Below are positions 4,646 to 61,055 of a stretch of 64,000 bases of DNA, piece after piece. A model generated the notes under the pieces. It was given only the letters and a program-made list of their open reading frames with translations, was not told the origin of the DNA and searched no databases. This stretch comes from Odiellus spinosus (taxonomy: Eukaryota; Arthropoda; Arachnida; Opiliones; Phalangiidae), in contig OY987240.1 of the NCBI GenBank assembly GCA_963920705.1, forward strand, positions 8,473,676 to 8,537,675, written 5' to 3'. A program made the position numbers and the translations under genes. The stretch's first letter is position 1. Each line of letters begins with the position of its first letter.

Positions 4646-5300
4646 TACGAAGTCTGTTTATTTACAGAAGCATAATTAATAATAATAAAATCCCTCGTTT
4701 TTCCACTTCTTCCTCCCTTTAGTGGGTATTGAGTAACGTTAACCGAGTTACGTCACAACGTAATTGTTGTAAAAGAAGAGACATAATCCCTTTGGAAGTA
4801 ACGCGCGCGTAATCATAATGAGTGACAGCTGACGTTTACAAGTTATTATACGAAGGCCTTGAGGATGTAATGATTAGGAATATAAAAGAGGCACCCTTTC
4901 AAAACTAATTTTGAACAAAACGAAACGCGTCGAAGCGGTAAATATTACTATTGTAACGTTAAAATTTAATTGTTTTACGCCTAGTTAATTAGCCAACTGT
5001 TAAAACTTTCTTATTCAAAACAGATTCCTAGTCTATGAAATGCTGGCGAACAATATGTCAAGTAGTCATACTTATTTTAATTAGCGTATGATGTAATCAA
5101 GCTTTTTATCCATATATACTTCAAAACGTATGTTACGTAATATTTATCTTGGTGGGGTTTTAGAAAATTTTCCCATTTTCCCCAAATGTTTTCTAAAATG
5201 ATTTAAGGCGTTTCATACAGATCTTATTAGATGACTTGTACTTAGACTTATTAGATAAGTACTTAGACGAAGAATCAAAAATTGTATATAAACTTCAATT
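4646..5300. other. intron sequence downstream of the RhoGEF exon
   Basis: It follows the splice donor at 5301-5302 when read on the minus strand. I see no further exon of the gene here; the DH domain must continue in an exon beyond the left edge of the window. Confidence 0.5.
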
Positions 5301-5302
5301 AC

Positions 5303-6084
5303 CTGAATGATTTGCTTCAAGTCCGAGACGTAAGTCCTCTCTGTCTCGACAATCTCCAAGAGAACTCTGTCGATATGAGTCAAACCGGAACTGGTCACGA
5401 TCGCGGACGATATCACACCCGTCGCGTTACCACCACCACCACCGGGAAGGCACGACGCGTTCGACGAAGAAGCCACGGACCCTAGAGGGGAATTGGGCGA
5501 AGGAGTCACGAGTCCCCGAGTATAGGGCGGAGTCGTGTCCAGCGCGAGCGTAGCGCCGCCACCGGAAGCGGCGCTTTGAGAGGAACAAGCCCCGTTGATC
5601 TTGGACGACGTCTTGACGTCTTCCTCGCTGGCGTCATCGTCCAAACTTTCGATGCTAGCCAAATAAGATTTTTTCACGTCCATAGCGTTCCGGGGCAAAG
5701 AGGAAGAACTTGACGAAGAACTCGAGGACAAGGAACTAGCGCTGAGAGGACGCTTATTCTTGCCACCAACGCCGCTGTCCGAGTAATTGAGGCGCCCGGC
5801 AGCCCCCGTCGCGCTACTCGACACGCTACTCGAGGAAGACGAAGACACTGAGGTAATCGTGACGCGCGGAACGAAACGGGAGATCGATTCCGAGGTAGAA
5901 GACGCGGTCGAATCCGGTTGGCAACGTTCTTGGACGGGTGATAAGTTACCGGGACCGGAACGACTAAAGGAGGACGACGAGGCCTCGGGATTGGCATCGC
6001 CATTCGTTTCTTCATCGCCTTTGTTTTGAGCTATCAAAGAGTCGTACATGTCCAGCAAAGCGGAAGCGATGTCCACTGACTGAC
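5303..6084 (-). CDS. internal exon of a PLEKHG-type RhoGEF (partial gene)
   Basis: One exon of 782 bp. On the minus strand a pyrimidine-rich tract and CAG acceptor (AG at 6086-6085) open it in codon phase 2, and a CAG/GTAATT donor (GT at 5302-5301) closes it in phase 0. It therefore encodes 260 complete codons. Residues 1-230 are low complexity: long serine runs, a glycine run, and acidic patches (SLDDDASEEDVK). Such linkers are common in front of DH domains. The last 25 or so residues, from LTHIDRVLLEIVETERTYV to KQIIQ, match the first helix (CR1) of the DH domain and are closest to the PLEKHG1/2/3 family, which activates Rho GTPases at the membrane and cytoskeleton. That assignment is from family knowledge. 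The exon is GC- and CpG-rich against an AT-rich background. The rest of the DH and the PH domain are not in the window. Another Dbl-family GEF is the main alternative. Confidence 0.85.
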
Positions 6085-6279
6085 CTGATAAGGAGAGAAA
6101 CAAATAAGAAATACGGTTAAGGTCTCGACGTTTATGGTAATTAGCGTAATTTCTTCAAAGATTTCGCGGAAAGCGTAGGTGATTTCGTGTATATGTTGGA
6201 CTCCACGGTTTCTATAGTATTGAAACCTTGATAATCTCTAAAAATAACAGTTGTAATCGTGAAATCATATCTAAACATC

Positions 6280-6801
6280 GGCTTAGGTTCATTTGCTCGA
6301 CTTCCAATTGATCGACAAGGAGTCCGTTTGATCGACTACCATTTGATCGACTCCCATTTGATCGACAAGCCATTCCAATTGATCGACAGCCCAGTTTTTT
6401 AGCGAGTAACGAATATAGGTCAAAGTTTTTTTGCAAGAAACTATAAAGTATAAAGTACTTACGACCCGTCACTCTTGTAATATTTTAGGTTAGGTTAGAT
6501 TGGTTAGGTTAGGTTAGGTTGGTTAATCTATTTATAATCGTTATTACGAAGTTGACCAATTGGGAAACGATCAAATGCACCCATTGTTGTCGGTAATTTG
6601 GGATTAGGCATCAATCATTTGATCCCTTTGTCGATCGTTTGGGAGTCGATCAAGTGGACGCTTTGTCGATCATTTGGGAGTCGATCAAGTGGACCTTTTG
6701 TCGATCATTTGGGAGTCTATCAATTGTGAGTCGATCATTTGGGTGTCGATCAAGTGGACCTCTTGTCGATCATTTGGGAGTCGATCAAGTGGACCCAAAT
6801 C
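6280..6801 (+). mobile_element. T1: Foldback-like element with TTAGG core
   Basis: The element is flanked by a perfect 9-bp duplication, CTAAACATC (6271-6279 and 6802-6810). Its ends form an imperfect 22-bp inverted repeat (GGCTTAGGTTCATTTGCTCG against the reverse complement of the right end). The left arm repeats words ending TTTGATCGAC. The right arm repeats the inverse, GTCGATCATTTGGGAG. Between them lies a run of TTAGG. Foldback elements of Drosophila (MULE-related) also have arms of short tandem repeats and 9-bp duplications. No coding capacity. T4 at 49369-49953 is a close copy with more left-arm units. Confidence 0.85.
6485..6522 (+). repeat. TTAGG run inside T1
   Basis: Five or more TTAGGT-type units, interrupted once by GATTGG. 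The same interruption occurs in T4, so the run was copied with the element and is not a telomere repair scar. Confidence 0.85.
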
Positions 6802-7253
6802 CTAAACATCAACGTATACCTTTCCCACGCGGACGAAAAACGAGAACCTCTACAAGTTTCAGCACCACAAAACCACTTCATAATATAAACTAGATGATTT
6901 TAAACTTTCGAAAGGATAATTTAACGGCTAACAACTTTGACTGCCCGACCACATACGTACTAAACTTGATTTGTATATAATAAAAAAAAAAATAACGGAC
7001 CTATCGAGCGATTTATCTAACATTTTCTAATTGTATCCCCTTATTTTAAATTTAAAACATGACCAAAAAAGAAAGATGATTTAGCGGATATTCAGTTCAA
7101 CGGATCTGAATAATATTTCAACTTATAGGGTGAGATAATTGAGGTTAAACCTTCCGTGAGATGGAAATAATACCGCTGCCCGAAAGAACTTTTCAAATTA
7201 TTTGATTATCAAATGGCGGTCTCCTTCAAGGGCGTTCAGCTCCGTTAACCAAG
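6802..7253. other. unique sequence, no gene seen
   Basis: No coding exon, RNA or repeat family recognised between T1 and B1. Confidence 0.4.
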
Positions 7254-16219: not shown

Positions 16220-16767
16220 TTGATTTGAATAACCTTATCTAATTAAATTAAGACGAATTAAGCAATTTTGAAGAGAATTTTCCTAGTCCCTTCAATCTAT
16301 GCGATATATCAACAACCCAAATTGAAGCGACATTTTAATTTTCAAATAAATTCATCCTATTTCCCACGTAATATACATTTTTAGACTCATTCCGAGAAAT
16401 TAAAATAATCAAAGGGTGTAACTTTTTTTTTTTTTATGATAAAAAAAATGTCCCACGCGGAAAACTGGTACAAATTTGTTTCGTCGTAATTTATACAATT
16501 TTAAGTTCGTCACCCAATTTGAAGATTTATTTAAAGAGAAGTTTATTTAAAGCGTTCTTTATGTCGTATACGGTTCGAAAAAATTAGCCCGAGGGAACTT
16601 CAGGAAGCAAATTCTAACCCGATTGTCCTCGGAGAAAATAGAAGATATTGAGATATGCCATGGAAGATCTATAAAGGGATAGTAAGCTTGTCGTCGGGAA
16701 AGAAAAAATTCGGCGTCCATGTTCAAGCGCACGACTTATTCCGCGCATCTATGGATAAATTTGGAAT
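16220..16767. other. unique sequence, no gene seen
   Basis: No gene recognised. Three plus-strand frames start here and run into the 22/23-bp array; the unique leader encodes nothing familiar. Confidence 0.4.
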
Positions 16768-18522
16768 TGCAAACGTCGATCAAGCCCAATTGCCAACGTC
16801 GATCCAAGCCCAATTGCCAACGTCGATCCAAGCCCAATTGCCAACGTCGATCCAAGCCCAATTGCCAACGTCGATCCAAGCCCAATTGCCAACGACGATC
16901 AAGCCCAATTGCAAACGTCGATCAAGCTCAATTGCAAACGTCGATCAAGCCCAATTGCAAACGTCGGATCAAGCCCAATTGCAAACGTCGGATCAAGCCC
17001 AATTGCAAACGTCGGATCAAGCCCAATTGCAAACGTCGGATCAAGCCCAATTGCAAACGTCGGATCAAGCCCAATTGCAAACGTCGGATCAAGCCCAATT
17101 GCAAACGTCGGATCAAGCCCAATTGCAAACGTCGGATCAAGCCCAATTGCAAACGACTATCAGGCCCAATTTCAAACGTCGATCCAAGCCCAATTGCAAA
17201 CGTCGATCCAAGCCCAATTGCAAACGTCGATCCAAGCCCAATTGCAAACGTCGATCCAAGCCCAATTGCAAACGTCGATCCAAGCCCAATTGCAAACGTC
17301 GATCCAAGCCCAATTGCAAACGTCGATCCAAGCCCAATTGCAAACGTCGATCCAAGCCCAATTGCAAACGTCGATCAAGCCCAATTGCAAACGTCGATCA
17401 AGCTCAATTGCAAACGTCGATCAAGCTCAATTGCAAACGTCGATCAAGCCAAATTGCAAACGTCGATCAAGCCAAATTGCAAACGTCGATCAAGCCAAAT
17501 TGCAAACGTCGATCAAGCCAAATTGCAAACGTCGATCAAGCCAAATTGCAAACGTCGATCAAGCCAAATTGCAAACGTCGATCAAGCCCAATTGCAAACG
17601 TCGATCAAGCCCAATTGCAAACGTCAATCAAGCCCAATTGCAAACGTCGATCAAGCCCAATTGCAAACGTCGATCAAGCCCAATTGCAAACGTCGATCAA
17701 GCCCAATTGCAAACGTCGATCAAGCCCAATTGCAAACGTCGATCAAGCCCAATTGCAAACGTCGATCAAGCCCAATTGCAAACGTCGATCAAGCCCAATT
17801 GCAAACGTCGATCAAGCCCAATTGCAAACGTCGATCAAGCCCAATTGCAAACGTCGATCAAGCCCAATTGCAAACGTCGATCAAGCCCAATTGCAAACGT
17901 CGATCAAGCCCAATTGCAAACGTCGATCAAGCCCAATTGCAAACGTCGATCAAGCCCAATTGCAAACGTCGATCAAGCCCAATTGCAAACGTCGATCAAG
18001 CCCAATTGCAAACGTCGATCAAGCCCAATTGCAAACGTCGATCAAGCCCAATTGCAAACGTCGATCAAGCCCAATTGCAAACGTCGATCAAGCCCAATTG
18101 CCAACGTCGATCAAGCCCAATTGCAAACGTCGATCAAGCCCAATTGCCAACGTCGATCAAGCCCAATTGCCAACGTCGATCAAGCCCAATTGCCAACGTC
18201 GATCAAGCCCAATTGCCAACGTCGATCAAGCCCAATTGCCAACGTCGATCAAGCCCAATTGCCAACGACGATCAAGCCCAATTGCCAACGACGATCAAGC
18301 CCAATTGCCAACGACGATCAAGCCCAATTGCCAACGACGATCAAGCCCAATTGCCAACGACGATCAAGCCCAATTGCCAACGTCGATCAAGCCCAATTGC
18401 CAACGTCGATCAAGCCCAATTGCCAACGTCGATCAAGCCCAATTGCCAACGTCGATCAAGCCCAATTGCCAACGTCGATCAAGCCCAATTGCCAACGACG
18501 ATCAAGCCCAATTGCCAACGAC
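16768..18522. repeat. 22/23-bp tandem array (AACGTCGATCAAGCCCAATTGC)
   Basis: About 79 units. From the left: five 23-bp units with GATCCAAGCCC and GCCAACG; three 22-bp units; nine 23-bp units with CGGATCAAG; nine 23-bp units with GATCCAAG after GCAAACG; then a long run of 22-bp units that includes two AAGCTC and six AAGCCAAATT variants; and a right end with GCCAACG and GACGATC variants. Because 22 is not a multiple of 3 and the unit has no stop on this strand, all three plus frames stay open for 550-623 codons. I see no evidence that they are translated. Confidence 0.97.
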
Positions 18523-21367: not shown

Positions 21368-22290
21368 AATCATCCACCAGCTTGTTCAGTGTAGAAAAGG
21401 GGATACTATCCAATCAGAATTTTACTTTGGTCTTACGTTAGATGGCGCCACAGTCTCCGAATACTTTTGCTCTAATTGATATCAATTTCAATGGAAAATG
21501 TGGCGCCATCTTTTGCGGGATTTAAAGCTGATTAAATATATAACATGGAATAAAATAAGATGTTTGATTGGCTCGTATCCCCTTATCTCCGGACCGGATT
21601 CAAAAGCTGTAGGTCCATTGGACCGACAGTGCGGGTTTTTGTCGGTCCATTGGGACGGTCGGTCGATTGGGACTGGGAACGGCTGTAGGTCCATTGGACC
21701 GACATTCCCAATCGACCGACATTCCCAATCGACCGACAGTCCCAATCGACCGACAGTCCCAATCGACCGACAGTCCCAATCGACCGACAGTCCCAATCGA
21801 CCGACAGTCCCAATCGACCGACAGTCCCAATCGACCGACAGTCCCAATCGACCGACAGTCCCAATCGACCGACAGTCCCAATCGACCGACAGTCCCAATC
21901 GACCGACAGTCCCAATCGACCTAACCTAACCTAACAATACATAGGGAAAGAAGACAGCAATGCTAGAGAAAACCGTAAGGCTTTATTCACAACGTAATAT
22001 TTATGGGGAAAAAACGGCAAGCCGCCAATCTGCCAGTTCCCTTTTTCGTTTAAGCCGTTTTCGGTCCATTGGGAAAAGCGCCTTCGGGCTAGTTTCTTTT
22101 ATCTGTTTGGCGGTATTCGAGTCTGTCGAATGGAATTGTCGGTCCATTGGGAGGACACCGATTCAAAATGGTGGTAAGTTCGAAATTTAAAAGTATTTTT
22201 TGAAATACTCTTTTTATTTTTCGCGATTTAACTTGTTTTTTGTACTAAATAACATAATTTATGGCGGAAGAAATGTAAAATTTAATTTAT
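21368..22290 (+). repeat. J1: dispersed repeat J, split by element T2
   Basis: 21368-21605 and 22160-22290 together match J2 (55070-55435) and the inverse of J3 (60700-61055). The conserved core is a hairpin-like pair, AGATGGCGCCACA at 21440 and TGTGGCGCCATCT at 21500. Downstream marks are GATTGGCTCGTAT and TTTTTTGTACTAAATAACAT. T2 sits exactly at GATTCAAAA, a word that occurs once and uninterrupted in J2 (GGATTCAAAATGG) and is recognisable in J3. Confidence 0.85.
21606..22159 (-). mobile_element. T2: Foldback-like element with TTAGG core
   Basis: 554 bp in a perfect 9-bp duplication, GATTCAAAA (21597-21605, 22160-22168), inserted in J1. The left arm has two CCATTGGACCGACA words and then about 13 units of CCCAATCGACCGACAGT (17 bp). 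A CCTAA run (inverse TTAGG) follows at about 21919-21936, and a degenerate right arm ends in GTCGGTCCATTGGGAGG. The J copies without T2 provide an empty site, which shows that this unit moves. Long frames in both strands of the 17-bp array are by-products. Confidence 0.88.
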
Positions 22291-33001: not shown

Positions 33002-33630
33002 TGATTTGAAAAACATGATTTGAAAAACATGATTTGAAAAACATGATTTGAAAAACATGATTTGAAAAACATGATTTGAAAAACATGATTTGAAAAACAT
33101 GATTTGAAAAACATGATTTGAAAAACATGATTTGAAAAACATGATTTGAAAAACATGATTTGAAAAACATGATTTGAAAAACATGATTTGAAAAACATGA
33201 TTTGAAAAACATGATTTGAAAAACATGATTTGAAAAACATGATTTGAAAAACATGATTTGAAAAACATGATTTGAAAAACATGATTTGAAAAACATGATT
33301 TGAAAAACATGATTTGAAAAACATGATTTGAAAAACATGATTTGAAAAACATGATTTGAAAAACATGATTTGAAAAACATGATTTGAAAAACATGATTTG
33401 AAAAACATGATTTGAAAAACATGATTTGAAAAACATGATTTGAAAAACATGATTTGAAAAACATGATTTGAAAAACATGATTTGAAAAACATGATTTGAA
33501 AAACATGATTTGAAAAACATGATTTGAAAAACATGATTTGAAAAACATGATTTGAAAAACATGATTTGAAAAACATGATTTGAAAAACATGATTTGAAAA
33601 ACATGATTTGAAAAACATGATTTGAAAAAC
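33002..33630. repeat. 14-bp tandem array (CATGATTTGAAAAA), about 45 perfect units
   Basis: I see no substitution across roughly 45 units. That means very recent expansion or strong homogenisation, in contrast to the older arrays here. All minus-strand frames stay open (14-residue repeat with FFKSCFSNHVFQIM); I regard this as a by-product of a unit without stops. Confidence 0.97.
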
Positions 33631-36466: not shown

Positions 36467-36719
36467 GTAAGGTTCCAATTGCGCAGTTCCCACAAGCGCA
36501 TTTCCTTTTGCCCAGGTTTTCATTTGCGCAGTTTTCCATTTCCGCAGGTCTCCATTTCCGCAGTGTTCATTTGCAGGTTATGTTAGGTTAGGTTAGAATA
36601 GTTAATCACTCAAACTAGCCTGTCCCTCATGTGGACAGCTCGAATGGCAAACTGCGCAAATGGGAAACTGCGCAAATGGGAACCGCGCAAGTGGGAAACC
36701 GCGCAAGCGGACGCAAACC
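36467..36719 (+). mobile_element. T3: short Foldback-like element with TTAGG core
   Basis: 253 bp. Left-arm words are CATTTGCGCAGTTTTCC and CCATTTCCGCAGG, the core is TTAGGTTAGGTTAG (about 36580), and the right-arm words are the inverse, AAACTGCGCAAATGGG. Flanks GGCATCCGG and GGCTTCCGT match at 7 of 9 positions. The arm word differs from T1 and T2 but the architecture is the same. Confidence 0.7.
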
Positions 36720-49079: not shown

Positions 49080-50185
49080 TAGTGCTGGGCGGATCCGATA
49101 ATTAGTGATCGAGTAATCGATTATTTTTCAAAGTAATCGCGAAGATTCGGTACTTTCAACGATTACTCGAAGCAGTATGCGCCATCTATGATCTATTAGA
49201 GAAAAGGTTTCACCTTAAGAAAAATAATTACCATAAGTTAGACTCATCCATAGAAACAATAGTACCGGCATTAACATCTAAAGATGGCGCACTTACGCAT
49301 ATACCCCCGTGTGAAAGATTTAGGTACCACCGGAAAAAGGGGAAAAAAACACTCAAATGGGTCTGAGGGGCTTAGGTTCATTTGCTCGACTTCCAATTGA
49401 TCGACAAGGAGTCTGTTTGATCGACTCCCGTTTGATCGACTCCCGTTTGATCGACTCCCGTTTGATCGACTCCCGTTTGATCGACTCCCGTTTGATCGAC
49501 TCCCGTTTGATCGACTCCCATTTGATCGACAAGCCATTCCAATTGATCGACAGCCCAGTTTTTTAGCGAGTAACTAATAAAATAGTTTCGAATAAAGTAC
49601 TTCCGACCCGTCACTCTTGTAATATTTTAGGTTAGGTTAGATTGGTTAGGTTAGGTTAGGTTAGGTTAGGTTGGTTAATCTATTTATAATCGTTATTACG
49701 AAGTTGACCAATTGGGAAACGATCAAATGCACCCTTTGTTGTCGGTAATTTGGGATTAGGCATCAATCATTTGATCCCTTTGTCGATCGTTTGGGAGTCG
49801 ATCAAGTGGACCCTTTGTCGATCATTTGGGAGTCGATCAAGTGGACCTTTTGTCGATCATTTGGGAGTCTATCAATTGTGAGTCGATCATTTGGGTGTCG
49901 ATCAAGTGGACCTCTTGTCGATCATTTGGGAGTCGATCAAGTGGACCCAAATCGGCTGAGGAACTCGAGCGCCCAGATGCGGCGGCAGAGGCGCCATGGG
50001 TGAACTACTTTTTTTTTCATGTTATCGATATTAATAAAACAATTTTACAATAATTTTGTAAAATAAATAATAATTTGGTTATAGCGAAAATTTACGCAAT
50101 ACAAATTGAAGATTTTGATGTAAAAGCCAAAATACCATTGCTTCTATGGATGAGTCTAACTTATGGCAATTATTTTTCTTATGGT
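49080..50185. mobile_element. U: inverted-repeat element interrupted by T4
   Basis: Starts TAGTGCTGGGCGGATCC, a hAT-like end, with GAGTAATCGATTA words. 49205-49260 (TTACCATAAGTTAGACTCAT and on) is the reverse complement of 50135-50185, and T4 lies between these arms. Similar GTAATCGAGAAAACGATTAC words at 50382-50402 may mark the far end. Boundaries uncertain. Confidence 0.6.
49369..49953 (+). mobile_element. T4: Foldback-like element with TTAGG core
   Basis: Close copy of T1 (same ends, TTAGG run with the same interruption, same right arm). The left arm has seven TTTGATCGACTCCCG units where T1 has two or three. The flanks share CTGAGG; a full 9-bp duplication is not clear. Confidence 0.87.
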
Positions 50186-55069: not shown

Positions 55070-55435
55070 TATTAAAATCGTCCACCATTTTGTTCCATGT
55101 AGAAAAGGAGAAATCATCCAATCAGAATTTTTCTTTGGGAAAATATTACGCGTTACGTTAGATGGCGCCACTGTCTCTGAATACTTTAGTTCAAATTAAT
55201 ATCGATTTTTAAGGGAAATATGGCGCCACCTTTCGGGGCTCGCCGCTTGTGTATGTAATAATGGAATAAAAGACGAGATTTGATTGGCTAGTATTTCCTT
55301 ATCTCAAGAATAGGATTCAAAATGGAGTGACCCGCAAGTTAGGAATTTAAAGGTACTTGTTAAGATACAATTTCTTCGCCATTTAAGTGTTTAGATGCAC
55401 TTTTTTGTACTAAATAATATATTTTACGGTTTAAG
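55070..55435 (+). repeat. J2: dispersed repeat J (uninterrupted)
   Basis: Has the hairpin pair AGATGGCGCCACTG and ATGGCGCCACCT and the intact word GGATTCAAAATGG, the empty site for T2. Confidence 0.82.
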
Positions 55436-55480
55436 AAATCTAAAAATTGAGATATCACGTATTACACACCATTTCCTTAA

Positions 55481-58696: not shown

Positions 58697-59690
58697 GGTA
58701 TGGATCCATTTGATCGGATTTCAAATGATCGACAAGGGGGTTTTGAGCAATTGATCGGATTTCAAATGATCGACTAGGGGTTTTGTGAATTTGATCGAAT
58801 TTCAAATGATCGACTAGGGGTTTTGAGCAATTGATCGGATTTCAAATGATCGACTAGGGGTTTAGTGAATTTGGTCGGATTTCAAATGATCGACAAGGGG
58901 GTTTTGAGCAATTGATCGGATTTCAAATGATCGACAAGGGGGTTTTGAGCAATTGATCGGATTTCAAATGATCGACTAGGGGTTTTGTGAATTTGATCGG
59001 ATTTCAAACGATCGACAAGGGGGTTTTGAGCAATTGATCGGCTTTCAAATGATCGACGAGGGGTTTTGTACGATCGGCTTTCAATTGACTAACAAGGTTT
59101 TCTTGCCCAATTGACGGATTTTCCAACGAACAAAAAGTAGTTTTGTTCAATGGATCGATTTTCAAATGATCGACAACGGGTTTTGCATAATTTATCGACT
59201 TTCAAATGATCCACAAGGGGTTTTGTCCAATTGATGGACAAGGGGTTTTGCCCAATTGATCGGATTTTAAATGATCGACAGGGGGTTTTGTCCAATCTAT
59301 CGACTTTCAAATGATAAGGGGTTTTGCGCAACTGATCGACAACGGGTTTTGAATAATTAATCTACTTTCAAATGAATGATCGATAAGGGGTTTGGAACAA
59401 TTGATCGACTTTCAAATGATCGACATGGTGTTTTGTCCAATTGATCGACTTTCAAATGACCGACAAGGGGTTTTGTCTAATCGATCGGCTTACAACTGAT
59501 GGACAAGAGTTTTGTCCAATTGATCGACTTTCAAACGACCGACCTGGGGTTTTGTTCAACTGATCGGTTTTCAAATGATCGACAAAGGGTTTTGCCCAAT
59601 TGATCGGCTTTCAAATAATAGATCGATAAGGGGTTTTGCCTAATTGATCTGTTTTCAAATGATCGAAATGGGGTTAGGTAAAGTTATAGG
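58697..59690 (+). mobile_element. T5: long one-armed Foldback-like element
   Basis: Starts GGTATGGATCCATTTGATCG, like the left ends of T1 and T4. About 24 units of roughly 40 bp follow (GATTTCAAATGATCGACAAG, then GGGTTTTG and AATTGATCG). It ends at GGGGTTAGGTAAAG, where a TTAGG core would begin. No right arm is visible, so it is a truncated copy or one expanded on a single side. Confidence 0.75.
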
Positions 59691-60079: not shown

Positions 60080-60695
60080 CCCAATAGATCAAATTTAATC
60101 CTCGAAATAAATATATTCCTTGTTCGTTAGCAACGCATCCAATTAACATTACACGGTCACTCAAATAGTGCGAAGAAATTAACCCAAATTCGTACAAAAA
60201 CTATTTCACAAAATTAATTTTTTGTTCCGAATTTCTAGCGCGAAACACCAAGCGGATCTATCGGTCTTTTTTCTCCAGAGGAAAAAATTCCATTAACCAA
60301 ATGTAAAATCTACTTAAAGAGGTGCCTACTACACAATGGAACGCGTTTCTAATCGTTAGATTAATTCGACGCCCCCTTTTTCTCGTTATTTACAATTCAT
60401 TAGGCGTCCAAAATTTCTCGCGCTGGAGTTCCAAGTCCAAGCCAAAGGGAGAATACAATCTAACAAACAAGGGATTTCTACTTTTAAAACGGAATTAGGC
60501 CCGAATTAGGCTTAGCGTAAAATCCACCAGAAAGAGCTTTTCCAAAGTGTATTATTTTACGAGTAATAGCTACAAAAATATCGTTTTCGCTTCTACAAGT
60601 CGTTTTATTATAGTTAAAAATTTAGAAATTAACTATTATAGGTGACCATTCGATAATCCAAGCACACATTATAAGCACCAATAATTTTAAAGTAA
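60080..60695. other. unique sequence with an element I remnant
   Basis: 60445-60540 (AAAGGGAGAATACAATCTAA, GGCTTAGCGTAAAATCCACC) is a degraded piece of element I. No gene recognised. Confidence 0.4.
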
Positions 60696-60699
60696 TATA

Positions 60700-61055
60700 T
60701 TATAATTTAATTTTTTGATGACCATAAAATATATTATTTAGTACCAAAAGGTATCTAAAATACTTAAAATCGCAAATATTTAAATAAATACTTTTAAATT
60801 TCGAACTTATACGGGTCAACCACCATTTTGAACCCTGCCCGAATAGAAGTGGATACGCGCCAATCAAATGCCGTCTTTTTAATCCAATATTATATATACA
60901 AGCGTCAAAAGATGGCGCCACATTTCTCATAAAAATCGATATTAATTTGAGCAAAAGTATTCGGACACTGTGGCGCCATCTAAATTAAGGCGTAAGATTT
61001 TCCCAAAGTAAAAGTCTGTTTAGCTAGGCTCCCCTTTTTCTACACGGAACAAGAT
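60700..61055 (-). repeat. J3: dispersed repeat J (inverted)
   Basis: Inverse of J1 and J2: ACCACCATTTTGAACCCTG, AGATGGCGCCACATTTCTC, ACTGTGGCGCCATCT, TTCTACACGGAACAAGATGG. It abuts I2. Confidence 0.82.

Follow-up and report, generated by a model that had tools for sequence, protein, structure and literature searches.

Drosophila Foldback elements have tandem-repeat arms and 9-bp target duplications, and Galileo, a member of the P superfamily, is characterized by a P-type transposase and 7-bp duplications. For MULEs, target duplications of 8-11 bp are reported, and a FLYWCH or SWIM finger is a possible, non-constant feature of the Phantom/Muta group (PMC6446971, accessible part). Muta1, which has a terminal motif of about 10 bp and is a type 2 Foldback according to its authors, has been grouped together with other Aedes aegypti MULEs with Phantom (accessible parts of PMC5225508 and PMC6446971). 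Tetris of Drosophila virilis is a foldback element whose arms seed satellites (PMC4079207, accessible part).

The elements described here lie in a window of 64 kb, the whole stretch of Odiellus spinosus DNA that was analysed, which is part of contig C18 of the 443-Mb genome. Their likeness to Drosophila Foldback, in tandem-repeat arms and 9-bp duplications, is one of design; the sequences probably differ, and Foldback is not known to carry TTAGG, which to our knowledge is absent from Drosophila altogether. Like Muta1 and the Aedes MULEs, in which the subterminal tandem repeats measure 9-15 bp, they have duplications of 8 or 9 bp, a terminal motif, short subterminal tandem repeats and many short derivatives, whereas no telomere-repeat core is described in the accessible text on those elements, whose derivatives have varied internal sequences. 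Similarities to the Mutator/Foldback element Tm1 of Meloidogyne (PMC3169594) include tandem words of 13-15 bp in variable number and mostly 9-bp duplications, and its asymmetric 7-bp outer motifs, Phantom-like transposase and MITE-like forms are comparable to what is seen here. Tm1 differs in its motifs and in a histone hairpin in one core group, and the accessible part of its description holds no telomere repeats. Tetris likewise carries tandem repeats in its arms and has 8-10 bp duplications, but its words are about 220 bp long, its authors found no gene-bearing copy, and the accessible part describes no telomere core (PMC4079207). Galileo, as covered in the accessible part of the same article, shares the foldback shape, and its arm words act as extra transposase sites.

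The overall plan of the elements matches that of the Muta/Phantom and Tm1 foldback MULEs. Compared to these, the TTAGG core appears to be the novelty, the literature searched being limited: a foldback MULE built around telomere repeats was found neither among the titles and abstract openings listed, which come mostly from outside the subscription journals, nor in the accessible part of a review on insect telomeres (PMC9693754).

Foldback elements in the window and their word families

Base-by-base inspection revealed a common plan of T1-T4, consisting of tandem words, a TTAGG run and inverse words, with target duplications of 8-9 bp. T1 (6280..6801, plus strand), a non-autonomous foldback element with the ends GGCTTAGGTTC and GGACCCAAATC, is flanked by the exact 9-bp duplication CTAAACATC (6271..6279 and 6802..6810, no strand assigned). 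Its left arm includes 2.7 copies of a 15-bp tandem word (6327..6366, plus), followed by the TTAGG core (6485..6525, plus) and the inverse words of the right arm (6625..6795, minus); the inverted match between the arms extends over 106 bp at 76%. T4 (49369..49953, plus), with 15-bp words at 49415-49530, the core at 49627-49677 and the right arm at 49776-49948, is 97% identical to T1 over 500 aligned sites, and the two are copies of one element. Their main differences are in left-arm units, in TTAGG units and in a segment of about 23 bp on the left side of the core. The 7.7 nearly perfect 15-bp units in the left arm of T4, compared to 2.7 in T1, support a gain and loss of arm units. The duplication of T4 (GTCTGAGG/GGCTGAGG) comprises 8 bp with one mismatch, or possibly 9 bp with a 1-bp indel. 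T4 is itself enclosed by 53-bp inverted arms (92%; 49212-49264 and 50133-50185) and perhaps lies inside another element.

T2 (21606..22159, minus) has a left arm of 17-bp words (21697-21921) and a core of three TTAGG units (21920..21934, minus), and is related to the sampled loci L017, L022, L030 and L045. Its duplication GATTCAAAA (21597..21605 and 22160..22168, no strand assigned) is, like that of T1, a perfect 9 bp as annotated. When joined, the flanks of T2 align across the junction to 55116..55456 (plus, 71%) and, inverted, to 60684..61027 (minus, 72%). The target site is present once in each of these relatives, with one base changed in 60684-61027. T2 interrupts a repeat, and two relatives of this repeat in the window are uninterrupted, so that the empty site formerly proposed for T2 is now represented twice.

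T3 (36467..36719, plus) consists of words of the type CATTTGCGCAG around a core at 36575-36597. Its duplication GGCATCCGG/GGCTTCCGT has two mismatches or, read as 8 bp, one mismatch, and stretches related to T3 are present in L010, L019 and L025. T5 (58697..59690, plus) is a fragment in which related 40-bp words form an array on one side only; neither a right arm nor a TTAGG run nor a convincing end duplication was found, and it was rejected as a full element. The single design that had been attributed to T1-T5 is thus upheld for T1-T4 and lost for T5. All nine TTAGGx3 matches in the window (at most one mismatch) fall within T1-T4, compared to none in shuffled sequences.

Three further features of the window were recorded. 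A 23-bp unit containing GTCGATCAAG is repeated about 75 times at 98% identity (16765-18520) and recalls the arm words, yet is one-sided. A perfect 14-bp array of TGATTTGAAAAACA (33002-33630) resembles an array that C18 carries at the start and again at the end of its first 6 kb (L066). An open frame on the minus strand (5213-6154) has an end, ERTYVSDLKQIIQVIEVYI, resembling what we take to be the start of a RhoGEF domain.

Arm words are mostly 13-17 bp long, and terminal motifs are GGTATNN, GGCTTAG and the like. Element ends consist of the terminal motif and then a version of CCCATTTG, as seen in family A (GGTATGTMCCCATTTCGCC), family B (GGTATCGTCCCAATTGATCG), L033 (GGTATATTCCCATTGG), L063 and L091 (GGTATATACCCATTG), T1 (GGCTTAGGTTCATTTG), T2 (GCTGTAGGTCCATTGG) and T3 (GGTAAGGTTCCAATTG). 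This is consistent with the earlier view of the arm words as versions of one motif. Many word families have only short motifs in common. By eye, a TTAGG core is present in about ten word families, and also in some elements whose inverted ends are plain; hence, of the claim that the T elements form one family with such a core, the sharing of the core stands, but the core is not confined to one family. Long inverted arms made of tandem words are the hallmark of foldback elements, and a terminal motif followed by short subterminal tandem repeats that of the Phantom/Muta clade; both are present here.

Duplications are mixed, of 8 and 9 bp, with no clean one in some copies of family A and of the T2 family. 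A blind scan that required an exact 9-bp duplication and a match at 13 or more of 18 terminal bases scored 10/59 loci and 9/1156 swapped pairs; for exact 8-bp duplications the counts were 23/59 and 22/1156. As several hits fall within arms, the scan backs the inverted structure more than the exact ends.

Among the elements with plain ends, family G (L013, L036, L037, L039, L040 and L044) has long inverted ends of the type GGTAGGATTATAG and TTAGG/TTGGG runs near the centre, with 8-bp duplications in three copies by eye; L011 and L041 look related to it. Family G, L026 and L041 combine such plain ends with 8-bp duplications and TTAGG, and the MULE assignment does not extend to them.

Surroundings of TTAGG runs along a chromosome

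Telomeres of TTAGG are typical of many insects. C1-C6 all terminate on the right in TTAGG arrays, so TTAGG is the telomere repeat of this host. The first 100 TTAGGx4 matches listed were merged into 55 sites within C1:1-15.35 Mb, all of which were examined. Inverted repeats between the 700-bp flanks were detected at 46/55 of these runs of at least four units, as the initial annotation had led us to expect, compared to 54/400 random anchors in the window and 20/108 anchors placed 1150 bp off the runs. Swapped partners gave 21/162 and far flanks 2/53. The far-flank control pairs stretches at least 2.4 kb apart and is too lenient, which makes the two anchor controls the figures of choice. A stricter 10-mer count still recognized inverted flanks at 34/55 runs.

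The 55 rows are non-independent, including by eye 16 copies of family A, seven of family B (one truncated), six of family G and four of the T2 family, and some positives (e.g. L012 and L048) are due to another inverted repeat around the run. Conversely, L029 and the three family-B copies L014, L016 and L038 were scored negative although these B copies are clear elements. By eye, L049 and L051-L053 are the principal runs around which no element can be seen, L034 is one-sided in the examined stretch and L054 is doubtful.

Minisatellites and inverted repeats abound in this genome, as the 54/400 anchors with inverted flanks illustrate, and arrays brought together by chance might merely resemble one design. 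The excess of 46/55 over both anchor controls, together with target duplications, empty sites and a gene-bearing relative, leaves this reading with a negligible probability and it was rejected. At the C1 sites listed (1-15.35 Mb), most TTAGG inside the chromosome appears to sit in the middle of foldback elements, including at least some Mutator-type ones, and the interstitial telomere DNA there was probably spread by transposons.

Interstitial telomere repeats are usually taken as scars of chromosome fusion or break repair. Cut-and-paste elements appear to carry most of those in the sampled 15 Mb as cargo, so that such repeats can arise anywhere without fusion.

Three near-identical stretches of about 4 kb at 12.87, 13.16 and 13.29 Mb of C1 (L055, L056 and L057) contain TTAGG and words of the type ACGATAAATTGTCC.

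Transposase-bearing relatives and core retention

The genome contains 72 MULE-domain matches, fragments included. Seven of these loci were inspected; for four, the inspection covered just the region preceding the domain. L091 has two frames, with a FLYWCH domain (E 3.6e-6) and the MULE domain PF10551 (E 1.6e-9), flanked by arms of the L063 type (93% over 231 bp and 99% over 150 bp), and a TTAGG run separates the left arm from the gene. It is the only one among the seven loci with foldback arms of its own. L063 is a short element with the perfect 9-bp duplication CAAATATTT, whereas the duplication of L091 is poor. The MULE transposase between similar ends that the initial annotation proposed to look for is hence represented by one copy, with a single word family that does not include the words of T1-T4. 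The MULE domain in L091 and the duplications of 8-9 bp do not fit the P superfamily (Galileo type).

A related FLYWCH frame in L095 (E 5.6e-5), the finger known from Phantom/Muta thus being present in both loci, is also preceded by a TTAGG-type run, and the core of L095 matches that of L042 at 84% over 44 bp. Relative to the gene, the run is oriented oppositely in L091 and L095. In L093, a T1-type element stands beside another MULE gene, and the TTAGG run belongs to that element. Neither foldback arms nor TTAGG were found within the stretches examined of L089, L090, L092 and L094; accordingly, L089 and L090, which have no foldback arms of known words there, were rejected as gene-bearing partners. 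Two short inverted pairs precede the frame of L090. None of the seven loci inspected, four of them upstream only, is a gene-bearing copy with T1, T2 or T3 words. T1-T4 themselves would use a MULE transposase by extension from the gene-bearing copy, whose words are the related ones of L063 and not theirs.

Two families were picked without reference to TTAGG. For family B, copies were picked by the left 35-nt end alone, which has 253 matches in the genome (at most two mismatches); 20 copies were taken from 100 listed. All 20 have a TTAGG core of 2-7 units, their lengths stepping by 5 bp. Their duplications are perfect at 8 or 9 bp in 16 copies, with one mismatch in three and two mismatches in one, which together with the perfect 9-bp duplications of T1 and T2 places them in the 8-11 bp range of MULEs. 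Family A was counted by its flank, with whole counts allowing at most one mismatch and listed places being exact: 218 flank matches compare to 210 with TTAGGTTAGG attached. Among 100 exact flank places listed, 92 have exact TTAGGTTAGG attached; of the remaining eight, the array begins later in L058, six have a shifted start or an altered unit, and L109 retains a single unit. The array is present in 99/100 of the listed places, and its position is the same in nearly all examined copies of families A and B. This shows that the array is retained in nearly all copies of both families.

Such retention raises the question of selection on the array as a working cis element, e.g. one bound by a host telomere protein, or part of a leader or promoter. 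This idea would fit its presence in 99/100 listed family-A places, its location ahead of the gene in both L091 and L095, and its occurrence in families with arms that cannot be aligned any more. However, the orientation is opposite in L091 and L095, nearly identical family-B copies vary between 2 and 7 units, one family-A copy (L109) has a single unit, and recent spread from one master copy would produce equally uniform retention. We therefore regard a selected cis function as improbable.

The same data bear on whether telomerase or a like activity adds TTAGG afresh at breaks whenever a short copy is born, making the cores repeated acquisitions. Telomeric repeats can be inserted during break repair in vertebrates (accessible parts of PMC8537989 and PMC7215372), runs are also carried by elements with plain ends (family G, L026 and L041), and the array of L063 lies exactly between two stretches that are about 380 bp apart in L091. 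Yet L091 and L095, both found by protein domains, already have TTAGG-type runs before the gene, and nearly all A and B copies examined share one core position, which makes recurrent fresh addition rather unlikely. As the origin of the core, filler captured at repair is possible.

We consider it probable that T1-T4 are foldback-type MULEs near Muta/Phantom in design, in which the TTAGG array is inherited and acts as a hinge. The arms, composed of a terminal motif and many words, probably offer extra transposase-binding sites, by analogy with Galileo; arms with more words could be favoured and would grow by slippage. Cut-and-paste transposition would create the 8-9 bp duplications, and the TTAGG array would be an inherited part of the leader region kept by the short copies.

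Junctions at the TTAGG edge and insertion sites

For the proposed hinge function, relatives were compared outward from the run and unshared stretches of at least 15 bp were scored. Between L063 and L091 the unshared stretch ends at the TTAGG edge on both sides, the L063 array exactly joining the two stretches separated in L091. When A is compared to A2, unshared sequence (66 and 2 bp) also stops at this edge on the left, as it does on the right for L024 compared to L023/L028 (28 and 0 bp). On the right side of T2, the arm words begin directly at the run, where its relatives hold about 118-233 bp more, as measured from printed edges. One-sided similarity was found for L018/L053, with 79 bp in common left of the run and nothing right, and for L049/L051/L052, with about 44 bp in common right of the run and nothing left. 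T1/T4 have the arms and the right core in common with L015/L093 and differ from them in the left inner segment, which in T1/T4 ends with the same 12-mer as in L018/L053.

Other comparisons placed the differences elsewhere. Larger differences lie away from the edge between T4 and T1 (about 23 bp) and between L022 and L045; there is no clear edge for L021 compared to the rest of family A, for A and A2 on the right side, or for L036 and the other G copies; and L034/L042 have the right side alone in common with L095, starting 11-39 bp off the run. The edge junctions are the weakest part of the case, as these comparisons were assembled post hoc, with no formal null to set them against, and TTAGG content was the criterion by which nearly all rows entered. 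Deletions and swaps among relatives often have the TTAGG edge as their limit, which gives the core the look of a hinge for repair or recombination.

The ~44 bp shared by L049, L051 and L052 (ATCACGTGG.TGTCGGGGAGG..) directly follow the run, with unrelated DNA before it, and are possibly the end of another repeat.

If the array serves as a hinge, failure or template switching of gap repair after excision would lead to broken ends being rejoined at the TTAGG array, giving rise to short deletion derivatives and to chimeras of two families joined at TTAGG; later transposition would scatter this telomere-type DNA over the chromosomes. The core junctions would thereby provide a testable route by which foldback MULEs lose genes, swap halves and renew arms. 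More tentatively, and with a likelihood that we place well below even, TTAGG may be a shared homology patch, perhaps extended by telomerase, through which broken copies were rejoined, halves of unrelated families exchanged and new families formed by module shuffling, and from which most interstitial telomere repeats of the host were seeded.

It had also been suggested that TTAGG cores steer insertion to telomeres. The positions of 97 zero-mismatch family-B copies listed on C1-C6 were profiled relative to the right (telomeric) ends only. The last 5 Mb hold 35/97 of these copies compared to 16.7 expected (p 7e-6), but the last 1 Mb holds 4/97 compared to 3.3 expected, and C1 and C2 are without trend. 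Tight telomere targeting at these ends was rejected on this basis, and steering by the cores, with the enrichment near telomeres that it predicted, has next to no remaining probability. A broad distal bias is common among transposons, and the bias of the listed family-B copies is of this broad type, mostly contributed by C3, C4 and C6. Adjoining the C1 telomere is an array of the unit AAGTCCATTTTAATTTAG, which is also found near the left end of C2 together with CCTAA repeats (L065 and L067).
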